Below, one piece after another: positions 2,612 through 34,654 of a stretch of DNA of 64,000 bases (within the stretch, counting starts at the first letter, position 1; each line of letters begins with the position of its first letter). The notes beneath the pieces were generated by a model that ran no database searches, had not been told where the DNA came from, and saw only the letters and a list, made by a program, of their open reading frames with translations. Location: contig CAMXCT020003669.1 of the NCBI GenBank assembly GCA_947184155.2, forward strand, positions 380,001-444,000. The letters are read 5' to 3'. Source of the stretch: Cladocopium goreaui (Eukaryota > Sar > Dinophyceae > Suessiales > Symbiodiniaceae). The position numbers and the translations under genes are program-made.

Positions 2612-3721
2612 CTTTCACAGCAGGAACCGGAAGTGCAGGAAGTGGCCATGGCGACAGGCTCCACTACTCCAGCACCAGCAGCGACAGCGTCCTCAGCAGT
2701 ATCTTTAAAAGATGTTTCGGAGGTTCAGGTTTCACCTCCCGGTTCCTCCGGGGAGGCAGCAGTATCACCAGTTTCACCAACAGTTCTTTCACCATCTCAT
2801 CCAGTGTTTCACACAGGTGACGGCAAAATATTTTTAGATATTTGCTCGGGAGCAACACGGCCATTGAGTAAAGCCATTTTGGCACAACATGGTGATGTCT
2901 TAGCCTTTGATATTCTTCTGGACTCAAGGATGGATTTGTTGAATGACCAGAGCTATGAGCAGCTCTTGAGGATCTGCTCATCGGGCCAGGTGGCATATGG
3001 CGCTGCTTCTCCTTCCTGCGCCCACTACTCTCGGCTGAAACTGCATCGACCTGGTCCTAAAGCCTTGAGGACACCGGAACCGGAAGCTATGCAAGGTGTC
3101 CCTGGATTGACAAGTGCGGAGCTTCTTCAGGTACAAGATTCATATATGATACTTTTTCGATGTGTGACTTGCTTAACATTGATTTATCAAGCAGGAGGTC
3201 ATGCTCACCTAGAGCAACCTCCATCAGCTATGAGTTGGTTGGAAGATTGTGTCAAAGCTTTTGTGACTCTGATTTTGGCCTGGTGCGTGGTTATTTCTGC
3301 TTGCGCATATGGTAAGAACTGGTACAAACAATGGATGTTTGCGAGCAGCTGGCAAAAAATTGCAGAACTGGGCCGTCTCTGTGATCACCCTAAAGGGAGC
3401 CATGTATCTTTGGTTGGAACCGTATCGGACACAGGTGAATATCTGAGTAGACAAACAGCTTGCTACCCGGAGGATCTGGCTACAGCCTTTGCAGAGCGCG
3501 TAGCACCTCTGGTGAGCCATTCATCGCACGACTGGAAATGGGATGATATTTCTCAGATTCCTCCCTTAAAAACCAACCCCCTTTTGGACAAGAAGATGGT
3601 GGTGGATTTACATCTAACCCTGACTGGAGTTTGGGTGAGCGAGTGGCCACGGACTTTTTCGGTCCTCTTCGACAGAAATGGGTTCAACGCATTTTGGATA
3701 ATCGGTTGGACAAGTTTTTAG
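2612..3721 (+). CDS. Methyltransferase-like domain of retroelement 1 polyprotein
   Basis: After a Thr/Ser/Pro-rich linker the frame shows a Rossmann-type motif I, FLDICSGATRPLSKAIL (about 2827-2880), with an acidic FDIL soon after. A PC-loop-like motif ASPSCAHYSRLK follows (about 3004-3040), then HLEQPPSAMSW (about 3207-3240), then an aromatic/basic segment ending in LCDHPKGSH. The order resembles class I SAM-dependent methyltransferases of the cytosine-C5 type (FxGxG, PC loop, ENV-like), but the canonical PCQ and ENV residues are replaced by PSC and EQP. I therefore call it MT-like without claiming activity. The domain merges into the RT frame after a shift near 3594. An ATG at 2648 is possible, but an in-frame readthrough from gag is equally plausible. 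Confidence 0.55.
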   Translation, partial: LSQQEPEVQEVAMATGSTTPAPAATASSAVSLKDVSEVQVSPPGSSGEAAVSPVSPTVLSPSHPVFHTGDGKIFLDICSGATRPLSKAILAQHGDVLAFDILLDSRMDLLNDQSYEQLLRICSSGQVAYGAASPSCAHYSRLKLHRPGPKALRTPEPEAMQGVPGLTSAELLQVQDSYMILFRCVTCLTLIYQAGGHAHLEQPPSAMSWLEDCVKAFVTLILAWCVVISACAYGKNWYKQWMFASSWQKIAELGRLCDHPKGSHVSLVGTVSDTGEYLSRQTACYPEDLATAFAERVAPLVSHSSHDWKWDDISQIPPLKTNPLLDKKMVVDLHLTLTGVWVSEWPRTFSVLFDRNGFNAFWIIGWTSF

Positions 3722-5796
3722 TCCAATTCTTTTCGCAAACTGATCATTCTTCTCCACCGTTTGCAGAGAATATCATCACTCCTTTTCGCAATGACCTGGA
3801 ACAATTTTTGCAGGATTCCGGCATCAACCCAGATTGGACTATCCGGGACCATCAACCTATGTGTTTGCACATTATGCATGGACTCTGCCAGATCATGCAA
3901 GACCCCGATCAGGCATTGTTTCCAGCGCTGATTGAGGGTGTGGGTACTGGTTTTCAACGGGATATTCCTTTGAGTAATTGCTTTCCTCTTAATGTTTCTG
4001 CGGAGGCTGATGAGCCACCACTGTCGGCCCATTTGACGAACTGGCAGAGCGCTGACGATGATATCATGTTGACCAGGCAGCTTGTACAACAGGAAATCGA
4101 CAAAGGATGGGTTTTCCCATTTGAGGGTACTTTGCAGGATGCACAACAGCGATATCCGTTGGGCGTTGCGCTGGGCAAACTTGGCATTGCCCATGCAGAT
4201 GGGCGACCTCCACGACTGGTCTTAGACCAAACAATCTGCGGCCTTAACGGGCGTTGTGTGATACCCGAGCGAAGTACGTTGCCATCCGCTAAGGATGTAC
4301 TTCGCACATTTCCGATCCGAAACTATTCTGGGGATCACATGGGATTTTCGCTCGACATTAAAGCAGCTCACAAAAGAGTATGCATTCGGGAAGAAGAACA
4401 TGGCCTTCTCGGATTTACGCTGCAAAATCAATTATATTTTTACAGAGTGGCCCCTTTCGGGGCCACTTTCTCGGCCTCATGGTGGTCTAGACTTGGCGGC
4501 TGGATGTTGAGGTTCTTCCACTTTTTGCTCTGGTGGGCACATGTGGCCCTACTGTACGTTGATGACTATTTGTTCCATCAATCCAGTTTTGGCATGCCAA
4601 TCTCAGCTACTATGATTTGTCTGTTTTGTCAAATTGTCAACATCCCCGTTTCTTGGCAGAAATGCGAACTTGCATTCAGCATACAATGGATTGGCTGGAA
4701 AATCCATTTTCGTTCCGGTTTTATTGAGATACCAATGCAAAAGATTGACAAGTTTCTGGGCTATCTCCATTCTATGGGACGCAGCTCCAGGACTTCCAAG
4801 CGGAACCTTGAGAAACTGATTGGACTGGCACTTTGGCTGACCCAACTTTGGCCATATATGCGAATATGGATTCGACATTGGTATCATGACCTCTATTCCA
4901 TTCCAGCAACACATTATAGCATTGACAATGGTGATTGGCGACAATTTTCAAGTCATTTGGATGAAAATCTACATATCATTTCTCGCCCTCAGGGGACAGC
5001 ACTGCCAATTGGAGGCCAGCTACTGGCGGTTCGCCATCATACAGTCAAGACGAAGTCGGATTTGACGACAGTTCCTCTCTCCAATAAAAGAATTTGGCTT
5101 CGGATTCGAGATCCCTCTTCCACCAAGAGACATTTGTCTTCCTCGAGTTTACGAATTATACAACATTTTATACAATGGGTCACAGGCCTGTCTCCTATGA
5201 AACCCTTAACCCCAAAAAAGTATTGGGATGGGGAAGCAGCAGCTGATGCATGTGCTTCTGGTAGCACATGCGAAATTGGAGGCTTTGTCAAATCAGCTAC
5301 AGGCCAAATTTACTGGTTTTCGGAGATTTATTCACATTCAGATTTTACTCAACTGGGCATTGAGCTGGATGCTGAAATGCAGCGATCTATTTCGGCTTTT
5401 GAGACCCTGGCTCAAATCGCTTTACTGTTTGTGACTTCCAAATTTTTTCCGGCGCATCGAATGCCCATTTGCTTGAAGAGCCTCAGTGACAACAGTGGGG
5501 CCGAATCCGGTAGCAATAAACTTTGGAGTATGACATATCCCCTATCAATTTTTCTTGAACGAATGTGTCTTTTGTCCGCGATGTTGGGGATGGAAATTGA
5601 TGTCAATCATATCCCGGGCTCTCAAAATATTTTGGCAGATGACTTGAGCCGTTGGGACCAAACAGGATCACCACCTCATTCATTTCACTTGAAAGATCGC
5701 ATCCGCATTCCTCTTGCAGAGCTGTGGCAGATTCGCACTTCTCCAACCTTGATTCCGAAAGAAGCTTCAATACCATGGACCTTACCTACTGTTTAA
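3594..5796 (+). CDS. Reverse transcriptase-RNase H of retroelement 1 (integrase-less)
   Basis: The coding phase changes from frame 2 to frame 1 near 3594, where a DGGG segment joins the MT-like part to the RT part. Fingers/palm motifs follow: PRLVLDQTICGLN, a MGFSLDIKAAHKRV segment with the first catalytic Asp, and the YVDDY box at about 4555-4569 (second and third Asp). An RNase H-like domain follows, with DACASG near 5247 and NILADDLSRW near 5629-5655. The frame ends at TAA 5794-5796 with no integrase, protease or tyrosine recombinase after it. The ADDLSRW ending is typical of DIRS/Ngaro-like RT-RH modules, so that class is my best guess. The recombinase expected of it is not seen, so the copy is either truncated or from another lineage. 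Confidence 0.75.
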
Positions 5797-5879
5797 TTCC
5801 TTTTTTCCTGATTGCTGGAATTCCCTCACTTTTCAATTGGGGTATATTTGGCGAGTTGAATTCCCAGATAGTTAATTTA
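5797..5879. other. Short spacer after RT ORF
   Basis: AT-rich, without coding signal. It leads directly into the first copy of the 272-bp direct repeat. Confidence 0.3.
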
Positions 5880-6151
5880 GGGGTTTAAGATCCATCTGTC
5901 AATTCAACCAAAGGTTCAACCAAATAAATTTGTTGGTTGGTGCCTCGAAGACAAATAATTCCAGCAAGCGAAAAAGGGAATATTAATTAAACCGAGCGTG
6001 ACCACGTTTCAGCAAACCAGATGTATGGTTTTGGAGAAGAAGTTTGGTTTTTGAATAATAGACAAGTTTAAGTTTGGTTTGTTCATATATATATATATAT
6101 TAAGATATATATATTAGAAATAACCCAGAAGATTGAAGTCCTTGTAGAACG
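5880..6151. repeat. 272-bp direct repeat, copy 1
   Basis: Starts GGGGTTTAAGATCCATCTGT and ends TCCTTGTAGAACG. It recurs almost identically at 6601-6874, with length differences only in the (AT)n tract near 6090-6112. The end contains CCAGAAGATTGAAGT (6125-6139), whose exact reverse complement occurs at 6231-6245, just outside the repeat. Confidence 0.85.
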
Positions 6152-6600
6152 TTTAACGTACTTGTTTCGTTTATGTTTTACGGGGAACTTTCAGATCTGT
6201 ATTTACCTTGAAACATTTTGGTTCAAGCTTACTTCAATCTTCTGGTGCGTTTATTATGCGTTTTGCTTGTTAAAAAACCCACCCATCCCACACCTGGTTA
6301 TTCTTGTTATTATTATATTCACTGTCATATTCGTTTGTTGCTTCTTTTGCTTTACCTAATGATCCGTCCAATGTTCTTGGAGTGGCTTCACCTGCTGTGC
6401 TCGTTTTGTACAGGGTAGTGAGTCCACTTCGACCTTGGCCTTACTCAAAGCATTCCAAGCATCCGACCTTATCCCTCCATCCAGGAGGTTTTGCATCCGC
6501 CGTAGTTCCTGCGTCGTCACCTTCACTAGGTTTTCTGTTAGTCACCACTTTGCATGCTGCTCGGCTTTTCTCACAATATGTGAGTCGTTTCTATTGACAG
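6152..6600. other. Unique segment between the two direct repeats
   Basis: 449 bp, T/C-rich, with short open frames but no recognisable protein. It could be the body of a small non-autonomous unit flanked by terminal direct repeats, or the spacer of a tandem duplication. Confidence 0.3.
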
Positions 6601-6874
6601 GGGGTTTAAGATCCATCTGTCAATTCAACCAAAGGTTCAACCAAATAAATTTGTTGGTTGGTGCCTCGAAGACAAATAATTCCAGCAAGCGAAAAAGGGA
6701 ATATTAATTAAACCGAGCGTGACCACGTTTCAGCAAACCAGATGTATGGTTTTGGAGAAGAAGTTTGGTTTTTGAATAATAGACAAGTTTAAGTTTGGTT
6801 TGTTCATATATATATATATTAAGATATATATATATATTAGAAATAACCCAGAAGATTGAAGTCCTTGTAGAACG
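6601..6874. repeat. 272-bp direct repeat, copy 2 (274 bp)
   Basis: Near-identical to 5880-6151, differing mainly in the (AT)n microsatellite. The minus-strand ORF to its right loses protein-like character on entering this repeat. Confidence 0.85.
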
Positions 6875-7402
6875 GCTCTGAAGTTCACTGATCGTCTGGT
6901 GTCGCTCAACAACAGTTCTGGGAAAAACATACTCCAGCGTTCTGCAGGGTCGAGACCAAGAAACATGGCAGTGTTCAGCATACGGTTCAACCTGGCATGC
7001 AATGAGGTATTTCTCTTGGTTATTTGCGGAGCAAAAGGTAACTCCAAGATTTTGCATAAAGCCGACATGCTGAACCTTATCATTTAGAAGGTTGTATAGC
7101 CATGCAGAAGCTTCAAATTCGCTGGTACTGCTTGAACAAGTGAAGACAAAATGAACAGAGATATCTTTGTTAAGGCATATGTCTATGAATTTCTGAAGGA
7201 CATAAGCTTTGGGGAGCAGTAGGCAGAGGCCTACTCCTGTATCACTGTGATCAAAGGCTTCTTCATAAGTGATCACAGTGCCTGAATATCTGTTCGAATC
7301 AATATCACTGGGGCAGTTCGCAACAAAAAGATGTTCTTTCCCAAGACTTGACACCAGTTCAATGGCATGTTGTTCAATAGTGTCATGAGGATTGCAGTTC
7401 AT
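6875..7402 (-). CDS. Unidentified ORF, about 176 residues, 3' end in repeat
   Basis: On the minus strand an ATG at 7402 opens a frame with ordinary composition through about 6875. It then runs into the direct repeat and becomes low-complexity (Ile/Tyr runs from AT repeats). The protein begins MNCNPHDTIEQHAIELV and contains several cysteines and hydrophobic stretches, but I recognise no family. It may be an exon whose 3' boundary lies near the repeat, or a chance open frame. Confidence 0.3.
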
Positions 7403-7859
7403 GTTGTCGACTATAACCCAGAGTACCCCTGGGTACAGTGACTACACAGGGGCAAACCAGAGGGGCAACCTGGGCGAAGCAAGACGATAACAAGAACAAT
7501 AAAGACTACACTGAGTACCCCAGTGAGCCTTATAAATCAATCAAACAAGGTCACAAGTAAAAGAACTACACTGGGTACCCCAGGAGTCCTTAAACAAGTG
7601 GGGTTCAAAACAGGTGTGTTCTATGGACACAATGCAGGTAAACCAAAAACGAGAAGGTAGATCTTAAACAGGCAAAACTAAGATAAACCCCCCCTCCCAA
7701 ATTATCTACAAAACAAACAGGTTAACGGGCACCTTTGTGCTCTTCCTACGGCAGTACTACCCTAGCCCCTTTATACTGGTGCCCCCAAAATTAACTCACG
7801 CAAATCACCCAAGATGGATGTTTGCCCCTTGAGTTAAAATTGGGTTACCCAGTCCCACG
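7403..7859. repeat. Non-coding region with GGTACCCC-type repeats
   Basis: Contains three loose copies of an ACTACAC(T)GGGTACCCCAG-like unit (about 7410-7435, 7506-7526 and 7561-7585), each around the palindrome GGTACC or a one-base variant of it. No coding sequence is evident. Confidence 0.35.
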
Positions 7860-7980
7860 GGGTGTGAGCCGATACGGCCTTGAGCCAAAGGCTACGGAAA
7901 TAATTAATCTCATTTGCAACATGCTTGGATAGCTGTTGAACGACCTGGCGGAAGCCACACGGCGTTGGACGGAAAAAATG
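7860..7980 (+). mobile_element. 3' part of a short retroposon (CGACCTGGCGGAAGCC family)
   Basis: The 3' signature GAACGACCTGGCGGAAGCC, then GGCGTTGGACGGAAAAAA, ends in a short A run at about 7973-7979. The same signature and upstream AATTAAT...CAACATG context occur at 41495-41560 (minus strand) and partly at 42325-42366 and 49560-49644. The shared 3' end plus A tail points to a non-autonomous retroposon. Its left boundary is not defined. Confidence 0.45.
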
Positions 7981-10264
7981 CTCAGACAGACATAAAGACT
8001 CAGCTCGGAGGTTAACCCTAGCAAGAGCCTAGCTGTACACGAAAGCAGACTACCACGAAAAACTCTGGTTGACCGGCCGAAGAGATGGGCACAGTGGGTG
8101 TTCTCGATGAATAGCCTGTGGCAAGAGGACTCTCCTTTGCCAGATCGACCTCTCACTGTACACTGCAGTGGACTGGGAGGCGGACTGCTAAGCCCTGACC
8201 ATGATTCTAGAACCATGCGCAAATGAAAGGTAGGCCCTTCGCTGGCAATGACGGATGATTGGGAGCAGCGCATCATCCAACTCGGGTTGACCAAACAACG
8301 CATGAGTATGCAATCTACCAGCTTTTCTCCACTGCCGTGGGATGGAGTGCATGGAAGGAATTTTTGCCGGATAGATTTGCCAACCTCAAGCTCTTGATCA
8401 CCCGTGCCATACGGCTACTGATGGCGGCTACCATCCGGCCAGCACATGCGAGACCTCCCCACCCACATGGGTCACGGCAGTTCGTCAAATCTTCAGATGC
8501 TACCATCCACAGGGCAAACTGCTGTTGGTGCGAGCCTGTTTTCCCCATCTTGTGACAGCTTCCATCCCAGACGGTATAAGAGACATTGATGTTCTCGGCT
8601 TTTCGGCTGGATCGTACACTGGATTGGCTATCCACAAAGTGCTCAATGAGTTCGATTGCTTCCCAGGACCACAAAGGTTGCTGCAATTGCCACTCCGCCA
8701 GAAATGCTGAGGCTGACAACTGGGGAACGAAGAGTGATACTTCTACACTGCCTTGAAGATCGACTCTGCGTATGGCACCCAGCCACCCTTACAGACCTTA
8801 GCTATAATGTCGTCCTCATCGATGGTCAGCCTTCCTGGAGTGGCCGAGCGCGACATGCTTATGGGCATCTACTGTTTACATCGATTGAGGAAGGCACCTG
8901 TCGTATTGACTATCGCTCTCATGGGTTAGCTTTGATCTCCCTGACCACTGCAAACGGACCCTCAGTTCCCTTCTTCAGGCTGCTGGCAAGGGATGTGCTG
9001 ATCTACATACGGTGCCATGGGATGACAGGGATGTCAGAGATGATCCCATTGCTACAGAGCAGGATCTGCGACAAGTCCTGATCGACATGATCCCAATTCC
9101 TGGGCAGGCGAATGCAGAAGGAGGAGAACTTATGAGAAACCTGCTCACTGAATTCCTCCGTGGTTTCCCGCTGCGCATATTGATCTTCCTGCTAGATATG
9201 GTGTTGCCTCAACTGGATGCTTACCATGCAGGTCGTCAGCTACAACACTTGTACCCTTGGACCAGTGTGGTGTTGGCGCAACGACAAGAGCGAGGTCAAC
9301 CGGGAATTGAGCTGGTGGTCCGATATGGCTATAAGGCCTTTGCGGGATTTCATGTCATGCAACTGATCACTGACTGCATTCCTCTCTTGCTCTTCAGCGA
9401 CCCAAAGGCGGTTCCTTCCGCGTCACCATGGAGTCTGTGTGAACATGGCAACTTAGGAAGCATGGAAGCCAATGTGATGGCAGGGAGAGCCCTGTTTGGG
9501 CGTTTCCAGCTCCCCGAGGGCCCGCGTCGCTGTGCCATCTTCCTGGTCCAAGAAAAAGTAATGCAAGGTACTAGTCGGTCCGCTGACTCCCGTGCATACC
9601 GTCGAATTGCCCCGAAATCCCTTGAGCTAGTCCTGGTCTCCAGGTCTGTTGCGTTTGCATTTTGTGGCCGCCTCCTAGTGCAACAGCCAGCGGAAGTGGA
9701 ATACTTTGACCCGGAATGAGACTGGCCGAAACCCATTGTCTTCCACGCAAGCTTTTCGGTGGTGATGGAAGAAATGGCTTTCCTTGGTGACATACGAAGC
9801 AGATGTGAATTGCTGGTTTTCGCACAGGCAAATCCGGCACGACTCCCACTGACGATGGGCATTCTTCAGCCCAACATCCCAGTGCGAAGAATGATGAGTG
9901 AACGCCGGACGAAGCTCACGGACGCTTTGGTCCGAGTGCTCTGTCGCTTACTGACACCTATTGGAGTTGCTCTCCCAGGCCCGCATGATGAATATATGCG
10001 CGACAGCCTATTCCCTTTGGCAGCGCATGGGGATGGGCACGTCCTTACTGTGGCAGTAGCATTGCTCCTGGCGATCCTCACTGGCCGTTCTGACCTGTGC
10101 ATCGCAGGCTTTTTTGGTGCCGGAAAGACGCGTTCCTTGGCGGTTTTGCTAATTGCCCTCAGCTGCGAGCTCAGTGATTTCTATGCAATCGTGTACACCA
10201 AAGAAAATGTTGCTGCAAAAGCCTTGGCGGATCAAATCGGTGACTTAGCTCCACCCACACGAAG
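7981..10264 (+). pseudogene. Alpha/beta-hydrolase-like + SF1 helicase gene, 5' segment (up to Walker A)
   Basis: Coding similarity is visible in successive frames. An upstream helical part lies at about 8280-8430. A hydrolase-like domain follows, with nucleophile-elbow motif GFSAGS at about 8597-8614 and later HCLEDRLCVW and HAYGHLLF segments that could hold the acid and histidine. A helicase part then has Walker A GFFGAGKTRS at about 10107-10136. Frame changes near 8440, 8660 and 9000 and an in-frame TGA at 9717-9719 break it. The frame is then open to 10264, where the copia element is inserted, and it continues at 20503 in the same phase. The gene would encode a fused hydrolase/nucleic-acid motor of unknown role. 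The 5' end is not recognised. Confidence 0.65.
10260..10264. repeat. Target-site duplication CGAAG, left copy of copia 1
   Basis: CGAAG directly precedes the TG of the 5' LTR and is repeated directly after the CA of the 3' LTR at 20498-20502. Five base pairs is the usual Ty1/copia integrase spacing. Confidence 0.9.
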
Positions 10265-11560
10265 TGTGGAAATATCCGGTATTTTTGGCTGGTGAGCGAG
10301 GAAAGCTTCTGGCTTTGTGCATATTTGGATGAACGAGCTGAAGTGGTACAGTGTGCGAGTTCTGCTTTGGTGGGGCGTGCATATTCTGCTTTGGAGAATT
10401 CAATGCTGGCATTCTTTGAGGAAGCAATTTGGAATTCGTGACTCCGGTCACCGGAAGAATGCTCGGGTGAGACTACATCAATTGGCCCGACCAATTGAGG
10501 TAGTGTCATCTTAGTGTTCAGAATTGTGTTTGGATATTGCATGCATATAACATTCGTGGATGCGGTGAGACTGGTATCTGTTGGGATCTGTTTTATGGTA
10601 ACCATGAATATTTGTAAATAGATGCGAAGCCTGGAGCACTTTTCGGACATGTCTTGATGACATTGAGGAGTTCAGGATTGAGCTGAGAACGTTTGCATGC
10701 ATTTGGAATCAATCTGAATTGAGGACGTTTGAATGCATGAGTGCATTTGAAGTAATTCAAGAATGTGAACATTTGAATGCAAGTGGAATCGTATGCATAG
10801 AAAGTGTTTATGAATTCAAAGAACCTGGAATGGAGTTTCCAGAAACCCACAGAATTTTTCAGCGAAAGTTGCGTTCTGTGAACTTTACTTTTATGGGAAA
10901 CTTTCATAGAAAGTTTCCGCACTGTGACGAACCGATTTGAACTTTGAACTTTGGACTAAACTGAGTTTAGAGTGGCTGCTTGTTAGTAGTTGTGTGTGTA
11001 ACTGTGAATAGTCGACACGTCGTTTTGAGTTTGTTGGTTGACAGGTTAACATCGAGACGGTGGTTGCCGATGTCCCTCAATGATGACAACAGACCGAGCA
11101 CCCGTCATCATAGTGAGATGACAAAAATGGGTTGCCGGTCGTCTGAGGGGGCATCAGCGACCGCAGTGTCGATGTTGACTATCTCTGGTTAGTTGAAGAG
11201 AGTTTTTTTGAGAAAGATCTTCGGATCTTGAACGTTTAAACAATTGTTGCAGTCAAGCTGTATGGTTGCTTTTGGCTCAAAGCCAAGGAAACTGCAAAGA
11301 AGTAGTCTGAGACAGTCACGTGGTTTAGTCCATCTTGCTTGTCTTGCTTGTTGCTTTGGTTCGTGTGTTTTTTTGTTGCTACAGCACCTCTGAGAGAGCG
11401 TCCAAAAGGGTTGAGCTGCTCCGAACCTGAGAGCTTGTGTGTGGGAACCGCGTTTGCGTAAACTTCGCTGTGCGTAGGTTGTAGGAACTGCATCTAGGTG
11501 TGGGTCCTGGGATTTGCGTAGAAAGGATTTTTGAACCAACTTGGGTTTGAATTTTCCGCA
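10265..11560 (+). repeat. 5' LTR of copia 1 (1296 bp)
   Basis: Starts TGTGGAAATATCCGG and ends TTTTCCGCA. It aligns end to end with 19206-20497. The differences I could see are a few substitutions (near 10542 and 11515) and one 4-bp indel in a CTTG repeat near 11335. It contains CTTTTGGCTCAAAG at about 11268-11281, sharing an 11-base core with the dinoflagellate spliced leader; this could be chance. Confidence 0.93.
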
Positions 11561-11626: not shown

Positions 11627-11850
11627 ATGTCTGGATCTGGTGGTTCTGGTAGACGCGGAGACGCTAGGAGGCGTAGGCGTAGTGTAGAACCTGAAACAGA
11701 AAGGTTTCGCGGAGATGATCCTTTGCAAAGAGATGATGCTTGGAGAGACTGGTTGAATAACCATGCAAGGCAACGCGATGAAAGACTTCCAGGTCCCTTT
11801 GTCACAAGCGTAAGCAGGGAGCCAATCCAAGTCAAGCAATGGAGTGAGGT
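11627..11850 (+). CDS. N-terminal part of copia 1 gag, in a different frame from the main ORF
   Basis: An ATG at 11627, 51 bases after the primer site, starts MSGSGGSGRRGDARRRRRSV. This basic N terminus runs in frame 2 to about 11850. The main polyprotein is in frame 1 and has no upstream ATG, because a stop lies just before 11851. The natural start is therefore probably 11627, joined to the main frame by a one-base shift at about 11840-11860, near a run of five Cs. Either this copy carries a frameshift, the element uses programmed -1 frameshifting, or there is a sequence error. Confidence 0.6.
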
Positions 11851-17800: not shown

Positions 17801-18672
17801 GGTTGCGTGAACAATTAGAGAGGTATATTCAGCTTGGTTGGATTGAAGGGCCTATAAACCTGTCAGACATCCTAACTAAGTGTTCAAGTTACCACTTTGT
17901 TCATAGAGCGACTTGTGGATTTCAGCCGAGAAGCCCAGCAACAACCGAAGGGTCTCAAGGTTTGAAAGGGTCTGACAAACCTTTGCATACACTGAAACCT
18001 CGTGACAAAACGATTGCATTGATTTTTGTTGAGTTTTGCTGTGAGGAACAGAGTGCACTGTCACAACACAACACAGCGTTTGCGTACATTGGAGTAACCG
18101 CTGAGGGGGAAGAAGCATCGACTTTGCGAAGCGTGCTGGAACGAGTTGAACGCTTGTGTGCTAATGCGTCGGCTCTTGGAATGCGTCCGCACGTACATTT
18201 TCATGCGAGCTGTCCGTGTGCGTCTGGATCTCCAATACGGTACTTGCGCCAGGATGCAGGGTCTGAGGATATTCGGTTCGCTGAACTTGAACCCCTTCTT
18301 AAAAGGTTGCCGTCGTACCGCAAGAAAGCTGATACATTCAGCTTGGAATGGCCAGTGAACAATGTGTTATGGTCATATGCAGGTGTCAAGGACTTGTTGA
18401 ATGAACTAGGTCTCAAACAGGAAGCAGTTGTGAGGTTGTGCAAACTTGGGTACGTATCGCGCTCAGGTAAACCTGTAGGAAAGAGGCTGAGGTTTGTGTG
18501 CGACTCGGAGGAGTTTGTCAAACCGTTGAGGCGTTTCCAGGCATGCAGGTGCAAGGAACATGCGCAGCTGAATGACGTGAACTGGAACGAGACTGGTAAG
18601 TATAACAAGTCGCTGGCGCTAGCGTTGGGTAACGCGGCGTACGCGTGTGCGCGAGCGAGGGGCGTGCACTGA
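11851..18672 (+). CDS. Copia 1 Gag-Pol polyprotein with C-terminal MT-like extension
   Basis: About 2273 codons open without interruption, longer than a usual copia polyprotein (about 1300-1500). Order: gag with coiled-coil stretch; two CX2CX4HX4C zinc knuckles (13153-13194 and 13219-13260); Lys/Gly-rich then Glu-rich linker; aspartic protease DSGA (13888-13899); integrase HHCC zinc site (about 14410-14465) and catalytic Asp 14530, Asp 14704, Glu 14809; RT with YVDDLLIFS (YVDD at 16885-16896); RNase H with FCDASHAP (Asp at 17458) and SSCESEMFA. After the RNase H come about 230 further residues described separately. The intact frame and near-identical LTRs suggest recent, possibly current, activity apart from the N-terminal frame break. 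Confidence 0.93.
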   Translation: MQPPGLGNSNGGARQQAGPGLDATRAHEVPVDDSLPSLSTPPGQTGQTETNGQTNVETQLLQISQALVSLRSDLQGQIGRSFGALERRLEQVETGNAAGNPVRNQTAPMQGPSDVFGQQYSGDGDCSFNRIGSPIRRHDRGHGSSGDTARRRDVSGERDVLSRSEKWLPAPPVPGTNTWRDRETEITGFFKYVQSLRAWSQLASSKMATEIEQSIKWPTEIVYSTLTPGQQARSSRLFALLKVAFADHDRSDSLIRAFEAGCAVHNSPQKPFGSCGYELIRVLALEFSLRTRTEAICLRAELLRREFKVDSKSIHVVSDLVRMIQVAVNNYERLAETLPVGISRADLKITSSDLALLFIRNLPHDAKQYCLLHSESETWEALQAAGLKYERQQRLYVELGAFSKRMVHGVAGEQVVSSDVDAQGSETVAAVGTGCGRCGKRTHKTEECSTNMTGVKCFQCGKTGHIGRNCLSQGQNKPDEKKPSKGSGKQGQKGKSGPSPKAKPKAKSKGKGQGKGKMYELGEGEEEQEEGYEEAGEWEAQEEASGSGLQMALLGSFGTSGQCVFDIVCATGDEILADESTEVHDLGPDLKSDCMSEKTHESSLDQDVGFSCHDVSSVCRGKATKGVGGASDVVFQNGSFGLIGSKYVPKGDVSWFDGLICMPLLSSLETRGQDNWWLIDSGASVTVLSESALKNGSFRILSEEIVRDGPRFFAANGTEVSMKKKVVVQTYLSMINHVGEKVEREIKLSALVGNTSNNILSTTQLVERGWNVNLGKRSQLIHEGMGLSADLMSWAGCPWLYLGSRKGSGRPVAGTIEVSCENPSGAGESSISVLELNINPVYKKAVVQSDMDEMHRARGHIPFDPKCAICQRTKGVSQHRRKQDGTNVVELAADFFHLKTFKFLIICERFSGMVGVVHMGPNTDHVRASVQRWLGEMGCLGDSHGVLVVSTDDEEAVGNVFSRLQVGKDVRVSKAPPQGQAMNGSAERSVRAIKENFVCVSEELRMQGLAICDNETAVGAVLEYVCFMLNSHASIHGSSKTPHEFLSGKNPSMSTRPITSMFGSVVLCELPQSAQADDRPRFLEGAYLRPEFNSKSGLCLVMLDGVLRKIHPKSIKLVLPMRWEKSLLKGFCVEGESQHRSVGDSAPADDVEFQKVRLSDSPPTEEPVCPKGGPPQEWFKQYEMYTKECAACRCLELGQSRKGKVHSASCCANYVRWLRTQRQEAAEAAERERAAVVKVPPNEWFDQSGYTPGCPACGALELGVNPDGLTHSSECIDQFEKLLKGSPADVGDSMKVGTSDPSVMVDTSKGGVGNDVNVDVAQGSFGGGVKRPLERSGEASDDSYAPSIAPSIHEKEEARFSSPQNVEDAQIADGSHVSTRGMKRVADEQLEPEPESLDVGESRKRPLENDGDMLDSVGVCVTDDCSRVHGIMQLSEGFTGADMFFEDQSLQSVVYQGGSKSETVSFCGSSIKVWKPDYAVDDSTSNTLDGNLTFSGMLTEVKNLDRVSAGKPLRQSEATAKADEYGVRIIPCRWVTTEKVIDGEDGVRARIVVKDIASGGGKAKSLGISSPTPSSESIKMALAIGGYSNAYGWTLDCSAAFMHTPLGKERKVIVRFPASMSWPDNSPLFMDLSKSLNGIRSASLDWLEYVQGIVKPLGLTCDVTSPCVFTAPGTVMIIYVDDLLIFSNKPDMGKKIWEKLNVVVPTKVTGQLFPNQEGSMKFVGRVIRRQAGAKELLVGVAPGYLDSCYRDYGMEKMKLGKPVVPNLRETLDGPPGPPLSTEAYQRYRRSLGKMAWLSQTREDLHIFIAYLATGQHAPDGRHEKAMRQVLRFLLFDGDQELSFPSPGNVKSLFQDSVELSGEPLMVVFCDASHAPMRATQRKGISGAFIFVLSSLVKGFSRHQTCTSLSSCESEMFAIQETAQEAMGLLPLVRKMVNDFFGNLAGFEGRKFPILMLTDSESAKQLLSALDVPRKSRHTEVRIFWLREQLERYIQLGWIEGPINLSDILTKCSSYHFVHRATCGFQPRSPATTEGSQGLKGSDKPLHTLKPRDKTIALIFVEFCCEEQSALSQHNTAFAYIGVTAEGEEASTLRSVLERVERLCANASALGMRPHVHFHASCPCASGSPIRYLRQDAGSEDIRFAELEPLLKRLPSYRKKADTFSLEWPVNNVLWSYAGVKDLLNELGLKQEAVVRLCKLGYVSRSGKPVGKRLRFVCDSEEFVKPLRRFQACRCKEHAQLNDVNWNETGKYNKSLALALGNAAYACARARGVH
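17950..18672 (+). other. C-terminal MT-like domain of copia 1 polyprotein
   Basis: Past the normal RNase H end there is a separate domain. Motifs in order: LIFVEFCCEEQSALS (about 18019-18060, motif-I-like), HFHASCPCASGSPIRYL (about 18196-18246, PC-loop-like), FSLEWPVNNVLW (about 18337-18372, at the ENV/EQP position), GKPVGKRLRFVCDS (about 18466-18507), and a final Cys/His segment CRCKEH followed by a TGKYNKSLALALG segment. The order and spacing match the MT-like modules at 2820-3560 and 24977-27330. Fold assignment is inference from motif order; catalytic competence is doubtful because the motifs are degenerate. Confidence 0.5.
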
Positions 18673-19195: not shown

Positions 19196-19205
19196 CGAAA
19201 GGGGG
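19196..19205 (+). promoter_or_regulatory. Polypurine tract of copia 1
   Basis: GAAAGGGGG lies immediately 5' of the 3' LTR TG at 19206, the expected place for the plus-strand priming site. Confidence 0.75.
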
Positions 19206-20497
19206 TGTGGAAATATCCGGTATTTTTGGCTGGTGAGCGAGGAAAGCTTCTGGCTTTGTGCATATTTGGATGAACGAGCTGAAGTGGTACAGTGTGCGAG
19301 TTCTGCTTTGGTGGGGCGTGCATATTCTGCTTTGGAGAATTCAATGCTGGCATTCTTTGAGGAAGCAATTTGGAATTCGTGACTCCGGTCACCGGAAGAA
19401 TGCTCGGGTGAGACTACATCAATTGGCCCGACCAATTGAGGTAGTGTCATCTTAGTGTTCAGAATTGTGTTTGGATATTGCATTGATATAACATTCGTGG
19501 ATGCGGTGAGACTGGTATCTGTTGGGATCTGTTTTATGGTAACCATGAATATTTGTAAATAGATGCGAAGCCTGGAGCACTTTTCGGACATGTCTTGATG
19601 ACATTGAGGAGTTCAGGATTGAGCTGAGAACGTTTGCATGCATTTGGAATCAATCTGAATTGAGGACGTTTGAATGCATGAGTGCATTTGAAGTAATTCA
19701 AGAATGTGAACATTTGAATGCAAGTGGAATCGTATGCATAGAAAGTGTTTATGAATTCAAAGAACCTGGAATGGAGTTTCCAGAAACCCACAGAATTTTT
19801 CAGCGAAAGTTGCGTTCTGTGAACTTTACTTTTATGGGAAACTTTCATAGAAAGTTTCCGCACTGTGACGAACCGATTTGAACTTTGAACTTTGGACTAA
19901 ACTGAGTTTAGAGTGGCTGCTTGTTAGTAGTTGTGTGTGTAACTGTGAATAGTCGACACGTCGTTTTGAGTTTGTTGGTTGACAGGTTAACATCGAGACG
20001 GTGGTTGCCGATGTCCCTCAATGATGACAACAGACCGAGCACCCGTCATCATAGTGAGATGACAAAAATGGGTTGCCGGTCGTCTGAGGGGGCATCAGCG
20101 ACCGCAGTGTCGATGTTGACTATCTCTGGTTAGTTGAAGAGAGTTTTTTTGAGAAAGATCTTCGGATCTTGAACGTTTAAACAATTGTTGCAGTCAAGCT
20201 GTATGGTTGCTTTTGGCTCAAAGCCAAGGAAACTGCAAAGAAGTAGTCTGAGACAGTCACGTGGTTTAGTCCAGCTTGTCTTGCTTGTTGCTTTGGTTCG
20301 TGTGTTTTTTTGTTGCTACAGCACCTCTGAGAGAGCGTCCAAAAGGGTTGAGCTGCTCCGAACCTGAGAGCTTGTGTGTGGGAACCGCGTTTGCGTAAAC
20401 TTCGCTGTGCGTAGGTTGTAGGAACTGCATCTAGGTGTGGGTCCTGGGATTTACGTAGAAAGGATTTTTGAACCAACTTGGGTTTGAATTTTCCGCA
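19206..20497 (+). repeat. 3' LTR of copia 1 (1292 bp)
   Basis: Same TGTGGAAATATCC start and TTTTCCGCA end as the 5' LTR. The 4-bp length difference comes from one fewer CTTG near 20273. Followed by the TSD copy CGAAG at 20498-20502. Confidence 0.93.
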
Positions 20498-20605
20498 CGA
20501 AGTGCCTTTGGACGGTTACTAGGTCGCATCGAGGAAGGCAAAGGCGAGGCGTATGCAACAAAAATTGATGTTCGGTGCAGTGATCGCAATAGGGTTATTG
20601 CTGAC
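20498..20605 (+). pseudogene. Hydrolase-helicase gene, middle segment (108 bp island)
   Basis: Begins with the right TSD copy and continues the helicase frame from 10264 in phase, reading AFGRLLGRIEEGKGEAYATK and onward to VIAD. It is a short island between copia 1 and the DNA-transposon-like unit. It lies between Walker A (10107) and Walker B (35582), as expected for an SF1 helicase. Confidence 0.75.
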
Positions 20606-20698
20606 CTGGGAAGCCCTTTGGCTCCTTAAAAGGGAGCCGGAGGCCGTTCAAGGCATTTGGCCGTGAAAAAACCATTTGGCCGTGAAAACTGGAATCCT

Positions 20699-21052
20699 TG
20701 TTTTCATGGCTGGACTAGCCATGTTTTCTTGCATGGGAGGGCTGAGTGAAAGGCAAACCTAGTTTTCATGGCTGGGCCAGCCATCTGTTCTTGCCTGGGA
20801 GGGCTGGGTGCAAAGCTAGTTTTCATGGCTGGGCCACCCATGCTTTCTTGCATGGGAGGGTTAAAGGCAAGCCTAGTTTTCATGGCTGGGCTAGCCATGG
20901 CTTCTTGGGTGGGAGGGCTGGGTCAAAGGCAAACCTAGTTTTCATGGCTGGGCCAGCCATGTTTTCTTGCATGGGACGGCTGGGTCAAAGGCAAACCTAG
21001 TTTTCATGGCTAGCCATGGCTTCTTGGGTGGGAGGGCTGGGTCAAAGGTATC
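20699..21052. repeat. Left subterminal minisatellite, six units of about 60 bp
   Basis: Six units begin at about 20699, 20759, 20816, 20874, 20936 and 20998. Each has TTTTCATGGCTGG, then AGCCATG...TTCTTG and GGGAGGGCTGGGT. The core TTTTCATGGC is the reverse complement of the GCCATGAAAA motif repeated at the right end of the unit. Confidence 0.8.
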
Positions 21053-21159
21053 GCCTAGGAACTCTACTTTGTTGTATTGCATACAACATACGCTTTAGCT
21101 GACCTGGTGTCAATGTGAGCTGTGTTGGCTTCACTGCTATGGATGTCTACAGGCTTCAG

Positions 21160-21390
21160 CGAGAAACATATCTATATGGGGAATATATATATATATAGAT
21201 ATCTAGATGGTGAATATATAAAAATATCTAGATGGGGAAATAAATAAATAAATAAATATATATATATATTTATTTATTTATTTAATATGTTAAAAAATAA
21301 ATGTGTTTATATTTATATAGTAATGATAATACTATATATAATATTCTATACGATATATATATATACACGATATAATATGTGAGCACGTGT
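21160..21390. repeat. AT-rich simple repeats
   Basis: (AT)n, (AAAT)n and (TATT)n tracts, including a near-perfect A/T palindrome at about 21237-21283. No coding content. Confidence 0.8.
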
Positions 21391-22747
21391 TCCTCCACTG
21401 AACAGACACCAAAGAAATCACAGCGCATGTGCAGGATTTGTTTTTTTGGTCATGCTTTTATTCAAGTGAATTGTCCCCGGCCAATACAGGCCAAACTGGA
21501 TGAATCTGTTTTGGATTTGTGTGCCACCTGGTTCTTTTAGTTTTTTTGGAAACACAGTTTTGCGAAACCAATCGCCCGGTGCAACTGCCACCTTTTTCAA
21601 CCCGGGGAGTGCACAGCGTGGGGTGTGCCGATTAGTGAGAAACGCTCTCATGAAAACAGTTTTCCTCAAGCCAATGGTTGCAAGGCACCATTATACATAC
21701 CATGTAGGTAGATATATCTATATGATACTACAGCACATCGCCTGATATGTTTCAGAGAATGACATGTTTATGATTTTCATGGTGGATCTCAATCGCCTTC
21801 CATCGGATTGTGCGCTGATGGCTGGTATCTGGATACTGCTGTGCCTGGTTGTTGCCAGTGGAATGGTGCCCTGGCTCAATGAAAACTGCCTAGCTGCCAA
21901 GCCGCCACGCATTGTGAAACATTTTTCCATCACATTCCAGGAAGTGTCAATTTTTGGAAAAACCTGGATCGAGAGCAGAAACTTTTTAGTTTGTGAATTC
22001 GTGGTGAAAATCATGAGGTTAAGTGCTGAGTTCAATCGGATCATCCTGCTCAGGTGCACTTCTTTCACTCGAAAGGTACGCATCCTCCGCCGCAGATCCG
22101 GGGATCCATGCACTGGGATTACATGTCGTGTGATTTTTTCAATTTGGGGGTCATGTTGGCATGTTGAAATTGTGGGAGGATCCATCCATATTGAAAGATT
22201 GCGGTGGATTGAAGCTCTCTGCCCCTCAGCTTTTAGGCTTACAGTCACTTGGGATATCAAGATGTCAAACCCCAAGGGAAAGGCTGATGGGGATGAGGTG
22301 CATTCGCAACTGGCCCACTTGCCTTTTGTCAAAGCCTACTCGAAACTCCCGAAGTTGAAAGAAGTTCCATGGAGGCATTGTTTTCTTATATTGCACTGAA
22401 AAATGCAAAAATGCATTCACATCAACCTGCCATCCCAAAAAAAAACACAAGTTTTTCACTGAGGTTGGCATGACACTCTTGGTCGACAAGTCGGGGAAGC
22501 TGTTTTCTATGCACGGGTGCTCGATCAAGGATATCCTTGTGAACCGTGAGGATGGGGATTCCCAGTTTCAAATATGTTTCCATTATTTTTGAATTGCTAT
22601 ATACAAGCTATATTTATATCTGCAATTATATTAGTATAATATTGTGTATTTGTAGGTTTATATCAATCACTGACCATCCATCTCTCTAAATTTCATGGAT
22701 AAAACAACAATGAACACTGAGACCAATGTGTTTCTGCCACTTTGCAG
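21391..22747. other. Mostly non-coding segment with one doubtful open frame
   Basis: An ATG frame at 21764-22399 is open for 211 codons but has unusual composition and no recognisable motif. A competing frame at 22161-22358 looks equally coding-like. I cannot decide between an exon and chance. Simple AT repeats follow at about 22595-22650. Confidence 0.25.
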
Positions 22748-22950
22748 GTGGTTCTAGCAACTATCAAGGGGATGAATGGCAATCCACGAGTTTCGGCATA
22801 CACTCTCCAGAAAGCAATTCTGACCGTGTTCCAAGACTTGAAACTCTATCCAGCTGGCATCTATTCCGACATACCGGCGGTCCAGTCCTGGGCATTGAAG
22901 TATGGTGTGGCCATCAAGAAATTGGTCCTTCGGCGTTCACCCATATATAG
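22748..22950 (+). CDS. Exon-like segment of an unidentified gene
   Basis: A TTTGCAG acceptor ending at 22747 leads into a clean frame beginning VVLATIKGMNGNPRVSAYTL and running about 65 codons to a CGGCGTTCACC near 22943, after which composition turns AT-rich. The helical, mildly basic peptide contains KAILTVFQDLKLYPAGIYSD. No family recognised. It is on the same strand as the downstream genes of the unit and may be an early exon of one of them. Confidence 0.35.
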
Positions 22951-23478
22951 GGTTAATCTTAATTAACTGGATACCTGTTTTAGCTGATCATCTATACCAA
23001 GGGCTGGTGGAAATTGGTTCCAAAGCAAAATGTAATGGGATCTCGATTTTCACTGCCATCGGAACTTAGGTTTCGAGGCTGCGCCGACTTATGCGACGAT
23101 CGGAAACTTCGAAGTATGACAAACTCACTGAGGTCAAGAGAACCGCCCGTTCTTATGGCTGGGGGGAGCTAGCTCCAAAGTCATCTTCGGGGAAGAAAGT
23201 GGACCCCTGTCAAAAAATATTTTTCTTTGTTCTAAAATCTGTGTTTTGTCAAAAAATCTGTGGGTTCAACATGAAATTCAGTTATAGTGGATCAGTAATA
23301 AATTTATGTGAATGCAGTGGGTTGGCCATGAAAATCTTGCATAGTTGGTGCAATGTGAAATTCATGCTTACTCAACCTGATGAAATGGAATTGTACCAAT
23401 TCAATCCGAGATAGAAAGTTTGTTATGAGTACATTTTCATGATGATTTGTAGAATATCGCATTGGATCATCCTACAAC

Positions 23479-24688
23479 ATGGATATCTTGGGATATCTGC
23501 CTAGATCTCTGGACTGTCATGCCCAGGATGTTGATGAGGATGATGATGAGTCGACCAGCGAGGCGCCCGATGCGGGCACTACTTCGGACCTTGAAGAGCT
23601 CGATTCATCACTCTCGTCAACGGCACCTGCCAGCAGCGTTTCCGGTGCAACTGGTTCCACAGAATCTAGTGCGTCAAGGGCCAAGATGGATAGGTTGATT
23701 CGCCAGCTCAAGAATCTCAAGATGGAAACCCCAATGAAGAGTGGTTGCAAAGGTGGTTGCAAAGGGAATACTTTGGAACATGAATCTCCAGATGTGTCAA
23801 ACAAAAAGGATGTGGGTCATACTCCATCTAGTTCGGATTCGTCGCTGTCCCCGAAACAACGCCTTGCACTTTACTTCCAAAGAAAGAGGGCTGAGAAAGC
23901 TGCTCAAGGTTTGGGGGTTACTGAGAATCCCAAAGTAGAGGTTGACAAGGATGCCACAAGTTCCCTGAATGATCCTGCAGCACCAGAGCCACATCAGAAT
24001 CGCTATGTACTTCCTGACCATGCTACTTGTTTTACTAAGCTTCACATTTTTATTTGTAGATATATATATATATGTGTGTACAGACATATATGTACATACA
24101 TACATACATATATATATTATATTATACACATATATATATATATATCTCTCTCTCTGTTCTCTGTCAGGGTTCAAGTGAACTTTGCGAATGGGAACACAAT
24201 ACACATGTTTCTAAGCCAGCCGACTTTCCTGGTTAGTAGAGGTTTTGAACACCATGAAGAAGATGTCGGCTGAAACGGCCAATGCTTTCCCGCTGAAGTC
24301 CCAGTATGTCAAGTCCATCACCCAAGCCCGCGAAGCCGAAGGTGATGACGAGCCTCATGAAATTGAGGACGATGACGATGAGGTTCCAGGACCTACCGTG
24401 AAAGCCAAGAAGGCGAAGGCGAAGGCCAAGGTTAAATCCACCAAGCCCAGTGCGAAACGTAAGGCAACTAATTTGGGTAAGGATGGAAAGAGGTGGAATT
24501 ACAACCAGGTTCGCATGAAGTTTATCAAGGAGGCCAGAAATGAACATGATCTTAGCTTTGAGGCTGCTCAGCACTTGTGGGACGAAAGTTCTGCAAAGAA
24601 AGATTTCCTCAAGGATGTTTCGGTCCAGGAGTTGAAACGTCGTAAGTTCATCCCAAAGGGAAGCACTGAAAACCCATGGGCCAACTAG
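23479..24688 (+). CDS. Charged basic protein gene, probably two exons
   Basis: The first part starts at ATG 23479 (MDILGYLPRSLDCH). It is Asp/Glu/Ser-rich, then basic, with an SPKQRLALYFQRKRAEKAAQ helix, ending near 24010. A simple-repeat intron-like stretch follows (24055-24165). The second part includes ATG 24254 and ends at TAG 24686-24688: an acidic run EDDDDEVPG, a Lys/Ala-rich run KAKKAKAKAKVK, and a folded-looking tail with KRWNYNQVRMKFIKEAR and VQELKRRKFIPKG. The tail resembles small DNA-binding-like domains that recur in dinoflagellate mobile-element genes (recollection, not verified). Whether the two parts are one gene or two is unsettled. Confidence 0.45.
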
Positions 24689-24976
24689 GATTTTGGGACT
24701 GCTCAGCACCATGCTGAAATTGAAATATTTCCATTTTGGATCATCACGGATGGCCTGGGGAGAGGCTGCTCTGCGGTGCGTGGAAAAACCTTTGCGGTGG
24801 CACTGAAATGTGTCAATGAAAGTCAACCCATTTGTTCACAACCATTGTGGTGAATGGATTTTGTGAAAAAGTTGAGATGTGAAACTTGTCCTGTCCAGAA
24901 TTCCATTTTGATCAAGAAAAGTAGGTTACTGCTAACCCAATTGAATCTTAGCTATGGTGGTTTTCGATGCTCTGAA

Positions 24977-27335
24977 ATGGCGAGCTCCTCCAGCGATGAT
25001 ACTTTTCATCCTACTGGTGCAATGGAACATGCAAATTCCTCACCGGCAAGAACCTAAACTTAAGTAGTAAATGTGTGCTTTTGTTGTAAGTCTCTGTTTT
25101 ACTTGTATGTTTTGAGCTTGGTTTTTCATTTTTCACACAGCTTCCCCCCGAGGACCGTCAGTTTGTTGAGATATTTAGTGGTCGTGGTGAAGTTTCGCGA
25201 GCCCTACGTGATGCTTCTTGGTACAACATGGGTGCCATGTGTGAAAACGAACAGATTGCAAGAAATAATCGAGTTGGGCCGATATCTGGCCAAATTTGCA
25301 TCCAGTGATTGGCTCATACATACAAATATCATATATATATATATCAAATCATATCCGTACAAAAAAGATCCATGCATAATCAATACAATGTATATATTCA
25401 CTTATTCAATGATCAATTGTGAATAGATGGGAGATATGTACACCAACTGTATACCCAACAGACTATATCTTTCTGGGGCCTTTGCCACACACTGCAGTGA
25501 TCGCTGTGCTCAGGCTGGTTTTCGAGGGACTTCGTTTGACTGGGAACTGGACAAGCGGGCATTCGATCTCACAGGGAATGCAGCTTTTGCGTCCTTTGTC
25601 TGAATTTTTTCATTGTAATTCATGTGAGTGGCCACTGAAATTCATGATTCGCTGATTCAACAAAGCAGTACATGTGGGATCCTTTATTGTATATCCCAAT
25701 TGAATTGTCCACTCTTACTCCATCGATCATGCGCAGCTGCTGGGAGGCTGGCCTGCAATGAAATCCTCCGATGTGAGCCCGGCTCCACTGTGGTGATAGC
25801 GCCTGACTGCAGCTCGATGAGTACAATGTGTCTTGGCAGTATGGGCATGTACAAGTGAAATAAGGAAATATTCGATTATATGGTATCTGACAAGAAAACA
25901 CGAGTCCATGTGGATTGGACTAGCCACATAATTAGTTTTCATATCCAAACATGTTGCTTTCGGCTGCATGAATTTCACACCCTGTGCAAATTTTGCCGGC
26001 CTCTCAGGTGCCGCTTCACATCGGGCAGAACATATTTGACGCCTTGGGGCAACACTGGATACACTTTTGTCCGTGTTGGCAAATGTTGTCCTCACGGTCA
26101 GTGCTCCTAATCCTATTGGCCTCCATATGCAATTTGAAATGGGTATTAGAGCAACCTCGAAACAGCTTTCTGGAAGATTTGCCGCGGTTTCAATGGCTAT
26201 GGGGTGTTGTGAAGGCCTGGGTTCCAACAAATCAAGACACCAATGATTGGGGTATATAGGGAATCAAAGGTTTTTCAATACCCCGAGAAAACAAGATCCA
26301 TTACAGCTGTTCTATTTTCATGGTAGCCATGTGGTATACTGTCAAGTTTCCATGGGAAGGCATCCATACTCTTTTCACGTATTATTTTTACTTAGGTGTA
26401 TACAAGGGACATATATCCTATATAGTATCCATTGTGTATATATATATGTACATATATATATAAATAGATAGGTAGATAGATCCATATTGTATATATACAA
26501 AAGTCTAATGCGAAATCCCTGCCAGGTGTTCAGCTGCACCATGTACATGGGTGTCTTTGGATCATCCAGTCCGAAACCCCACAAGCTGTATTCGAACCAT
26601 GAGGAAACCCTTCAAGCGATCTCTCAAAGAGCTGGCTTTATGTCCCGAACTGATCAAGAACAATGCACAACTGTGCCAACGACTCGTCGGTATGTTGATC
26701 GAAGTGGAAAACGTAGACGTGTGGGTGTGCCAAAGGCCCTTAAGGAGTCTGCGTATCTATGATGATTGTTTAGCATGAATGTTTCCTGTACCACATTTCC
26801 CAAACAAATATCCTGTTCAACTTTTTTGCGTTGTGAAACAAATCCAGTTGGTTTCAAATTTCCCGCACATCCATCCACTCGATCAGGCATTACCCTGCTG
26901 CTTTTGGTGACTTCATTGCGAGTTTGACTGCAGAACATCGACATGTGTTTCGGCTTTAATCCACGGTTTTGGACAAGAGAAAAACATGAGCTATCCTTGG
27001 ATAATTTGAACCAGTCCCCAAAATAGCCGTCTCACGATGTCAAGGTTTCACAATGAAAGAAGGTTGCATTCACGAACAAGCAATATATAATATATATATA
27101 TATAACCGCCATGAAAATAGATATGTGACTATATGTATTCACTCTCTTCATTGTGTGTCGGAACTATCAAACACAGTGCCGAACTTCCCGGAACTCTGAG
27201 GCACCCTTGCCGGGACCGGTGCAACATGTTGACATTCCCAAAGGGCTCACTGACCTGGAGCTCTTTGAGAAGTTCTGCCTCCCATCCATTTTTGATGATG
27301 CTTGGAATGATGTTTCTTGGCTTGGTCCTATAACT
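24977..27335 (+). CDS. Multi-exon MT-like gene inside the DNA-transposon-like unit
   Basis: ATG 24977 (MASSSSDDTF) begins exon 1, which ends at 25045. The intron 25046-25140 starts GCAAG and ends CACACAG. Exon 2 from 25141 reads FVEIFSGRGEVSRALRDA (motif I). Exon 3 from about 25514 reads GFRGTSFDWELDKRAFDL (motif-II-like acid). Exon 4 from about 25737 holds STVVIAPDCSSMSTM (PC-loop-like, about 25782-25826). Exon 5 from about 26008 holds KWVLEQPRNSFLEDLPRF (about 26134-26190). Exon 6 from about 26526 holds SSSPKPHKLYSN and RYVDRSGKRRRVGVPKAL and meets a TGA at 26760. An exon-like stretch at 27177-27330 (LFEKFCLPSIFDDAWNDV) may continue the gene. A one-base shift near 26083 breaks exon 5. Motif order is that of a class I methyltransferase with altered catalytic motifs. 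Confidence 0.55.
25046..25140 (+). other. Intron with GC-AG boundary
   Basis: The flanking codons (TCC TCA CCG | CTT CCC CCC GAG) join in phase 0. The donor is GCAAG and the acceptor TTTCACACAG. Non-GT donors are well known in dinoflagellates. Confidence 0.6.
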
Positions 27336-34640: not shown

Positions 34641-34654
34641 TTGCTTTGGTTAAG

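Follow-up and report, generated by a model that had tools for sequence, protein, structure and literature searches.

Elements that carry cytosine methyltransferases have been described in dinoflagellates. In the part of de Mendoza et al. 2018 drawn on here (PMC5890265), SymbioDIRS-Dnmt3 and SymbioLINE-Dnmt carry DNMTs of the PF00145 type in Symbiodinium, the Copia superfamily of the same genus is without any DNMT domain, and the methyltransferase of classical DIRS1 is Dam-like. Here we analyse a 64,000-nucleotide stretch of the Cladocopium goreaui genome (contig CAMXCT020003669.1, positions 380001-444000, forward strand; hereafter the window, with coordinates counted from its first letter). 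It holds three modules resembling cytosine-5 (C5) methyltransferases: (a) in a DIRS-type element, (b) in a Ty1/copia element and (c) in a DNA transposon with terminal inverted repeats (TIRs).

2816-3574, + strand: module (a), C5-methyltransferase-like domain (profile search; AlphaFold2 model and fold searches)
3017-3019, 3212-3214 and 3326-3328, + strand: key codons of (a) for Cys, Glu and Lys
18007-18654, + strand: module (b), C5-methyltransferase-like domain at the C terminus of the copia polyprotein (profile search; AlphaFold2 model and fold searches)
18217-18219, 18346-18348 and 18481-18483, + strand: key codons of (b) for Cys, Glu and Lys
25153-25218, 25496-25594, 25739-25834, 26083-26220 and 26520-26753, + strand: exon pieces of module (c), matched by a c-family profile built without window members

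Like SymbioDIRS-Dnmt3 as set out in that part of PMC5890265, the element with (a) is a dinoflagellate retroelement with a cytosine-methyltransferase-like domain and repeats in the order A-coding-B-A-B; for the recombinase open reading frame (ORF) of SymbioDIRS-Dnmt3 it has a putative, recombinase-like counterpart. It also shares with SymbioDIRS-Dnmt3 the placing of methyltransferase and reverse transcriptase (RT) in one ORF, as judged by an RT motif in the methyltransferase frame at 9 of the 15 fetched (a) loci (window copy included in the count), although not in the window copy itself. SymbioDIRS-Dnmt3 and SymbioLINE-Dnmt were found with PF00145, according to the same text, whereas the modules here match no PF00145, and (b) and (c) reside in a copia element and a DNA transposon. 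DIRS1-like elements, in the portion of PMC3266345 considered, are likewise recombinase-encoding and have a methyltransferase domain in pol. Their classical order is RT, RNase H, methyltransferase; in the (a) element the methyltransferase precedes the RT and has a C5 fold in its predicted model, and the repeats are direct (split), not inverted. An earlier sequence-only reading of this DNA had invoked the DIRS methyltransferase as a precedent, a parallel that falters in kind, the DIRS1 enzyme being Dam-like whereas our models match the cytosine-5 type. Transposons are known to capture cytosine methyltransferases; what looks new is a divergent clade common to a copia element and a DNA transposon, which we found undescribed in the titles and abstract openings of the open-licence literature searched.

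Homology of the three modules

The motifs quoted for (a), (b) and (c) in the sequence-only reading lie where it placed them. We searched 1,955 window ORFs by hmmsearch with module profiles from which the copies in the window had been excluded, and recovered all three modules. The match to (a) covers residues 69-321 of ORF 2612-3718 (E 5e-124), that to (b) covers residues 2054-2269 of ORF 11848-18669 (E 2e-93), and for (c) five exon pieces are matched (E 2e-10 to 9e-4). The c-family profile also matches (a) directly (E 1.9e-9). In hhalign comparisons, (a) and (c) align with E 2.7e-14 locally, over 217 columns, and 4.5e-18 globally; (b) aligns with the merged a+c profile at 9.8e-6 locally and 1.5e-7 globally, with motifs I, IV, VI, VIII and X-like blocks in register. 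The latter comparison scores 43.5, against 14.0 +/- 2.7 (maximum 25.5) for 300 column shuffles and 16.8 for the reversed profile. As a further control, 19 windows of the copia polyprotein starting at 0-1800 score at most 19.1 against merged a+c, and three that overlap or equal the domain (starts at 1900, 2000 and 2045) score 23.8, 36.8 and 35.9. The resemblance is not limited to the short motifs, as profile matches span the full domain, and we conclude that (a), (b) and (c) are homologous; the claim of related modules in three element classes is borne out. In the a-family alignment, 52 of 53 rows pass the minimum trimmed length of 180. Alignment B2 does not include P0126 and L045, L107 was fetched and not used, and L105, which has no motif I, is in alignment A3 and not in B2.

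A tree of 185 sequences separates (a), (b) and (c) together from canonical C5 sequences with support 0.999, and the grouping of (b) with (c) receives 0.259. Because the sequences are this divergent and the C5 members were picked by motif, we regard this tree as weak evidence. It agrees with the three forming a group apart from canonical C5 sequences, and gives no well-supported order within them.

Relatives of the window proteins, among them ones named Cladocopium goreaui and Symbiodinium pilosum, number 143 for (a), 6 for (b) and 13 for (c). The genome itself yields at least 111 matches to (a), at least 131 exon or ORF matches to one c-family protein, at least 148 scored matches for (b) and at least 150 for each of two further copia queries; all these counts are lower bounds that include fragments, and the lists for the three copia queries overlap in part. 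Twenty c-family members (L079-L098) read as single frames of 272-393 residues, several of them near-identical.

Fold, catalytic residues and selection

AlphaFold2 models of (a) and (b) have mean confidence values (pLDDT) of 79.1 and 80.9 and predicted template modelling (pTM) scores of 0.72 and 0.82, and their strands and helices follow one another in almost identical order. All 50 rows listed by VIA-align for each model belong to the C5-methyltransferase family, with DNA methyltransferases first for both; as 50 rows are listed per model, the absence of other families there excludes none of them. In their predicted structures (a) and (b) have the C5-methyltransferase fold and not unrelated folds, and through its homology to (a) the same fold is probable for (c).

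The motif IV catalytic Cys, aligned with the canonical PCQ Cys, is kept in 51/52 sequences of (a), 28/28 of (b) and 22/22 of (c). The same numbers hold for the putative motif VI Glu, and a further Lys is conserved in 49/52, 28/28 and 22/22. Little is left of the target-recognition domain between motifs VIII and X, approximately 30-45 residues according to the models of (a) and (b). A merged a+b+c profile aligns with 83 canonical C5 sequences at E 6e-6 over 75 columns, an alignment that runs from motif I to motif IV and places the Cys of both in the same column (score 45.7; maximum 25.0 in 120 shuffles), and an earlier C5 profile of 8 sequences gave no match to the modules. Of the canonical sequences, 8 come from the genome studied here and 75 from viral contigs. 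PCQ and ENV patterns served for the most part to retrieve the viral ones, which were kept if they had PCQ and EN[VI] (75/83 loci) and are thus canonical by choice.

The modules resemble M.HhaI, DNMT3, DNMT1 and DNMT2 in fold, in the register of motifs I-IV and in the Cys and Glu, and differ from them in having no usual target-recognition domain, no ENV, no RxR and no PF00145 match. At E<=1, 53 a-family members and 20 of the c-family show no PF00145 among their matches, nor was it found in the (b) polyprotein. In size and fold they are also similar to compact viral cytosine-methyltransferase-like proteins, namely A0A0A0RJX0 (210 residues; template modelling (TM) score 0.73 by target length) and Tetraselmis virus 1 A0A2P0VN45 (218 residues; TM-score 0.65 by target length), both compared by structure.

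Both retroelement modules are under purifying selection. The ratio of nonsynonymous to synonymous divergence (dN/dS) covers 11 comparisons for (a) and 9 for (b), with five further pairs left out. For (a) it is 0.06-0.29 in the 7 of 11 with estimable dS, one of which has a dS of 2.3, near saturation; the other 4 are saturated. For (b) it is 0.11-0.60 in 6 of 9, where the value of 0.60 rests on three changes; 2 are saturated, and L009, one of the nine loci, is the same copy as in the window. Restricted to the 8 comparisons with at least 19 changes and estimable dS, the range is 0.06-0.12.

Possible roles of the modules

We lean towards the view that a single divergent and compact C5-like clade has spread as an exchangeable module and acts as an active enzyme that would mark the element's own nucleic acid. 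Its domains of approximately 215-250 residues, almost without a target-recognition domain, would have been exchanged among DIRS-type, Ty1/copia and TIR DNA elements, alongside a large gene family. Of the suggestion in the sequence-only reading, a module shared or exchanged among element classes, the homology stands, and exchange, in whichever direction, is the likelier way to read it. The module would transfer a methyl group to carbon 5 of a pyrimidine, and new copies would be marked before or at integration. Because (a) and (b) share a polyprotein with reverse transcriptase, newly made complementary DNA (cDNA) would be the likeliest substrate, followed by element RNA or an RNA-DNA hybrid. The homology of all three modules, the folds of (a) and (b), the conservation of Cys and Glu, the selection in (a) and (b) and the types of host are computed; activity and substrate are inferred.

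Several observations weigh against this view. Non-CG methylation of transposons is independent of the encoded DNMT in the part of PMC5890265 used here, which speaks against simple self-marking, and CpG depletion in the window gives no signal that sets module-bearing elements apart from the rest. Neither finding favours the sequence-only suggestion that the module perhaps alters chromatin or DNA marking of new copies. Local comparison of (b) with (a) or (c) singly falls short of significance (E 0.015 and 0.025), the global E-values being 0.0032 and 0.0005 with hhalign probabilities of at most 13.4%; the sequence set of (b) is redundant, the hhalign filter retaining 8 of 28. Foldseek matches with E<=0.001 have low TM-scores, 0.29-0.37 by query length, and pLDDT of the (b) model is below 50 at residues 79-95, starting at the motif IV Cys. 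Motif VI reads E-x-P instead of ENV, with the P in 52/52, 25/28 and 21/22 sequences of (a), (b) and (c). RxR of motif VIII is gone in all three, the conserved Lys being in its place and the next residues varying. The motif I Gly, kept in 46 of 48 ungapped sequences of (a) and 21/22 of (c), is Cys in all 28 of (b). Pfam, PHROG and NCBIfam gave no significant methyltransferase match; of the nine proteins submitted, one hit phrog_363 at E 0.26. Two of the 50 VIA-align rows for (b), 6u91_C and 6w8d_C, resemble by residue number what we take to be the inactive partner DNMT3L. Among PDB sequences, there was no significant match to a methyltransferase, with weak matches such as 3sm3 (E 1.9).

The missing RxR and ENV, together with the motif I glycine that (b) has lost, would also suit a catalytically dead fold retained for binding nucleic acid or protein, for example in integration or particle assembly. 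The DNMT3L-like chains point the same way, as does a C/H-rich stretch (C257, H259 and H264 in (a); C188, C190 and H193 in (b)) that could bind zinc. A binding role alone does not need the Cys and Glu, however, each of which is kept in 101/102 sequences, and we consider a dead fold possible but distinctly less probable than an enzyme acting on the element's nucleic acid.

Similarly tentative is the proposal of an active pyrimidine-C5 methyltransferase that works on RNA, either element RNA or primer tRNA, and not on DNA, in the manner of DNMT2, which is a tRNA enzyme. Human DNMT2 is the best Foldseek match of the (b) model, the first product of an element is RNA, and the usual DNA reader has gone with the missing target-recognition domain. 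However, DNA methyltransferases head the VIA-align rows of both models, and the host of (c), a DNA transposon, has no RNA stage.

Three independent captures of different C5 methyltransferases that came to look alike by convergence seem unlikely. Independent captures of DNMTs by retrotransposons are published (PMC5890265, in the part cited), and the three modules differ in host and in domain position. Against this, (a) and (c) match each other at 2.7e-14 and (b) matches a+c at about 1e-5, in each case over the whole domain, while single families match canonical C5 sequences less well (0.021 for (a), 0.21 for (b) and 2e-4 for (c)), although merged a+c reaches 7.5e-6 over 75 columns. The common E-x-P, the conserved Lys, the missing usual target-recognition domain and the tree split at 0.999 also argue for one origin. 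Motif resemblance without homology, to which the low percent identity between classes and the motif-based first observation might lend some colour, is highly improbable, contradicted by full-domain profile matches with controls and by the matching predicted folds of (a) and (b).

Retrotransposon-borne DNMTs were sought with PF00145, as the part of PMC5890265 used here describes. If a divergent clade does escape that profile and resides in copia and a DNA transposon, the fraction of dinoflagellate mobile DNA with its own modification enzyme is underestimated. We think it somewhat more probable than the opposite that this clade, invisible to the Pfam model and common to three mobile element classes including Copia, equips several lineages with a nucleic-acid-modifying enzyme of their own. 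The modules would be added candidates for the makers of unusual dinoflagellate DNA marks, and the conserved residues named above offer targets for a simple assay.

Host elements and their surroundings

1-6874, + strand: portion inside the window of the (a)-bearing DIRS-type element, whose 5' end and recombinase-like ORF (L110/L108) are upstream of the window
1316-1993, strand not assigned: insertion interrupting the gag region, not in the other copies compared
1940-2611, + strand: Gag-like ORF with a CCCH zinc finger (zf-CCCH_4, E 1.1e-5)
3547-5796, + strand: RT ORF (RVT_1, E 1.4e-5, below Pfam's cut-off)
5880-6151, + strand: repeat B1, 97.8% identical to 6601-6874
6143-6277, + strand: repeat A2, 97.8% identical to L110:157-291, upstream of the window
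6601-6874, + strand: repeat B2, partner of B1
10265-11560, + strand: 5' long terminal repeat (LTR) of copia, with a 5-bp target-site duplication (TSD) CGAAG at 10260-10264 and 20498-20502
11848-18672, + strand: copia Gag-Pol ORF of 2,274 residues (RVT_2, E 6.6e-13)
19206-20497, + strand: 3' LTR of copia, from LTR comparison
20605-35476, strand not assigned: 14.9-kb DNA transposon with ends CCTGGGAAGCC and GGCTTCCCAGG, a 2-bp GA duplication and repeats near both ends
33326-34360, + strand: transposase-like ORF of the (c) unit

Module (a) belongs to a DIRS-type element. The sequence-only reading had called this element integrase-less, a label that does not stand, as a tyrosine-recombinase-like ORF is found immediately upstream of the first window position. 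The ORF has 704 residues with R, H-x-x-K and Y motifs, which we take to be the tyrosine recombinase signature; it has no Pfam, PHROG or NCBIfam match and matches a second recombinase-like ORF at 24% (E 3e-8). That second ORF (L109:964-2499) closely follows one of the copies of the DIRS-type element, in C2800. Alignments with six further copies, at 91-99%, cover 1994-6873 and end at 6873 or 6876, and 5 of the 6 also align over 1-1315. In 7 other copies the stretch ending at 1314/1315 runs directly into 1994, with an overlap of 2-3 bp (C264 only from 1040). Methyltransferase and RT form one frame in other copies (e.g. P0002), and frames of 1,011-1,153 residues occur in 58 of 111 listed (a) matches. 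At 6 of the 15 fetched loci the RT motif is absent from the methyltransferase frame; two of these have long frames, in which the motif may differ. The window copy is damaged, by the insertion at 1316-1993 and by a frame break between methyltransferase and RT. P0002, an (a)-family protein, is filed under a metagenome-assembled genome of Cohaesibacter and is probably eukaryotic contamination. A repeat of approximately 1 kb at 6866-7898, adjoining the element end, recurs at 95-99% in 31 other listed places.

The LTRs, the 5-bp TSD and RVT_2 around (b) are hallmarks of Ty1/copia. The copia copy is young, because its LTRs are nearly alike (3 mismatches and 4 gap columns) and it is flanked by the CGAAG duplication. 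The polyprotein gave no rve (integrase) match in Pfam at E<=1.

The 14.9-kb unit around (c) is absent from three paralogous sites (C871, C2730 and C1034). DNA searches for it were dominated by LTR copies, yet gave these sites without the unit, and in another search by short repeats, the rows listed there lacking even the copy in the window. CACTA/EnSpm-like transposons have short TIRs, a TSD of 2-3 bp and subterminal repeats. The (c) unit is similar, with 11-bp TIRs, a 2-bp TSD and subterminal repeats. Its ends begin CCTGGG. The ORF at 33326-34360, presumably a transposase by resemblance, has no Pfam match; a second copy of the unit, at C913, carries both the module and this ORF, 97% identical. 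The (c) gene probably continues at 27174-27356, and its window copy is frame-broken inside an exon near 26.07-26.12 kb, where the relatives P0132 and P0133 read through.

The copia element and the 14.9-kb transposon split one gene (8650-10264, 20498-20604 and 35477-38740), which we assume from its GAGKT and DESQQ motifs to be helicase-like. Judging by copy numbers, their meeting in one locus would need no special cause. A degenerate CACGAAAAT-type repeat lies at 28003-28157, and c-family exons occur too on the contigs of its 7 best matches. On C699 and C2112, as in the window, the repeat stands approximately 0.65 kb after the last matched c-family exon. A further retroelement lies at 49911-54427; its integrase match is weak (rve E 0.023), the module profiles do not match it, and it contains an ORF that we take by resemblance to be RNase-H-like.

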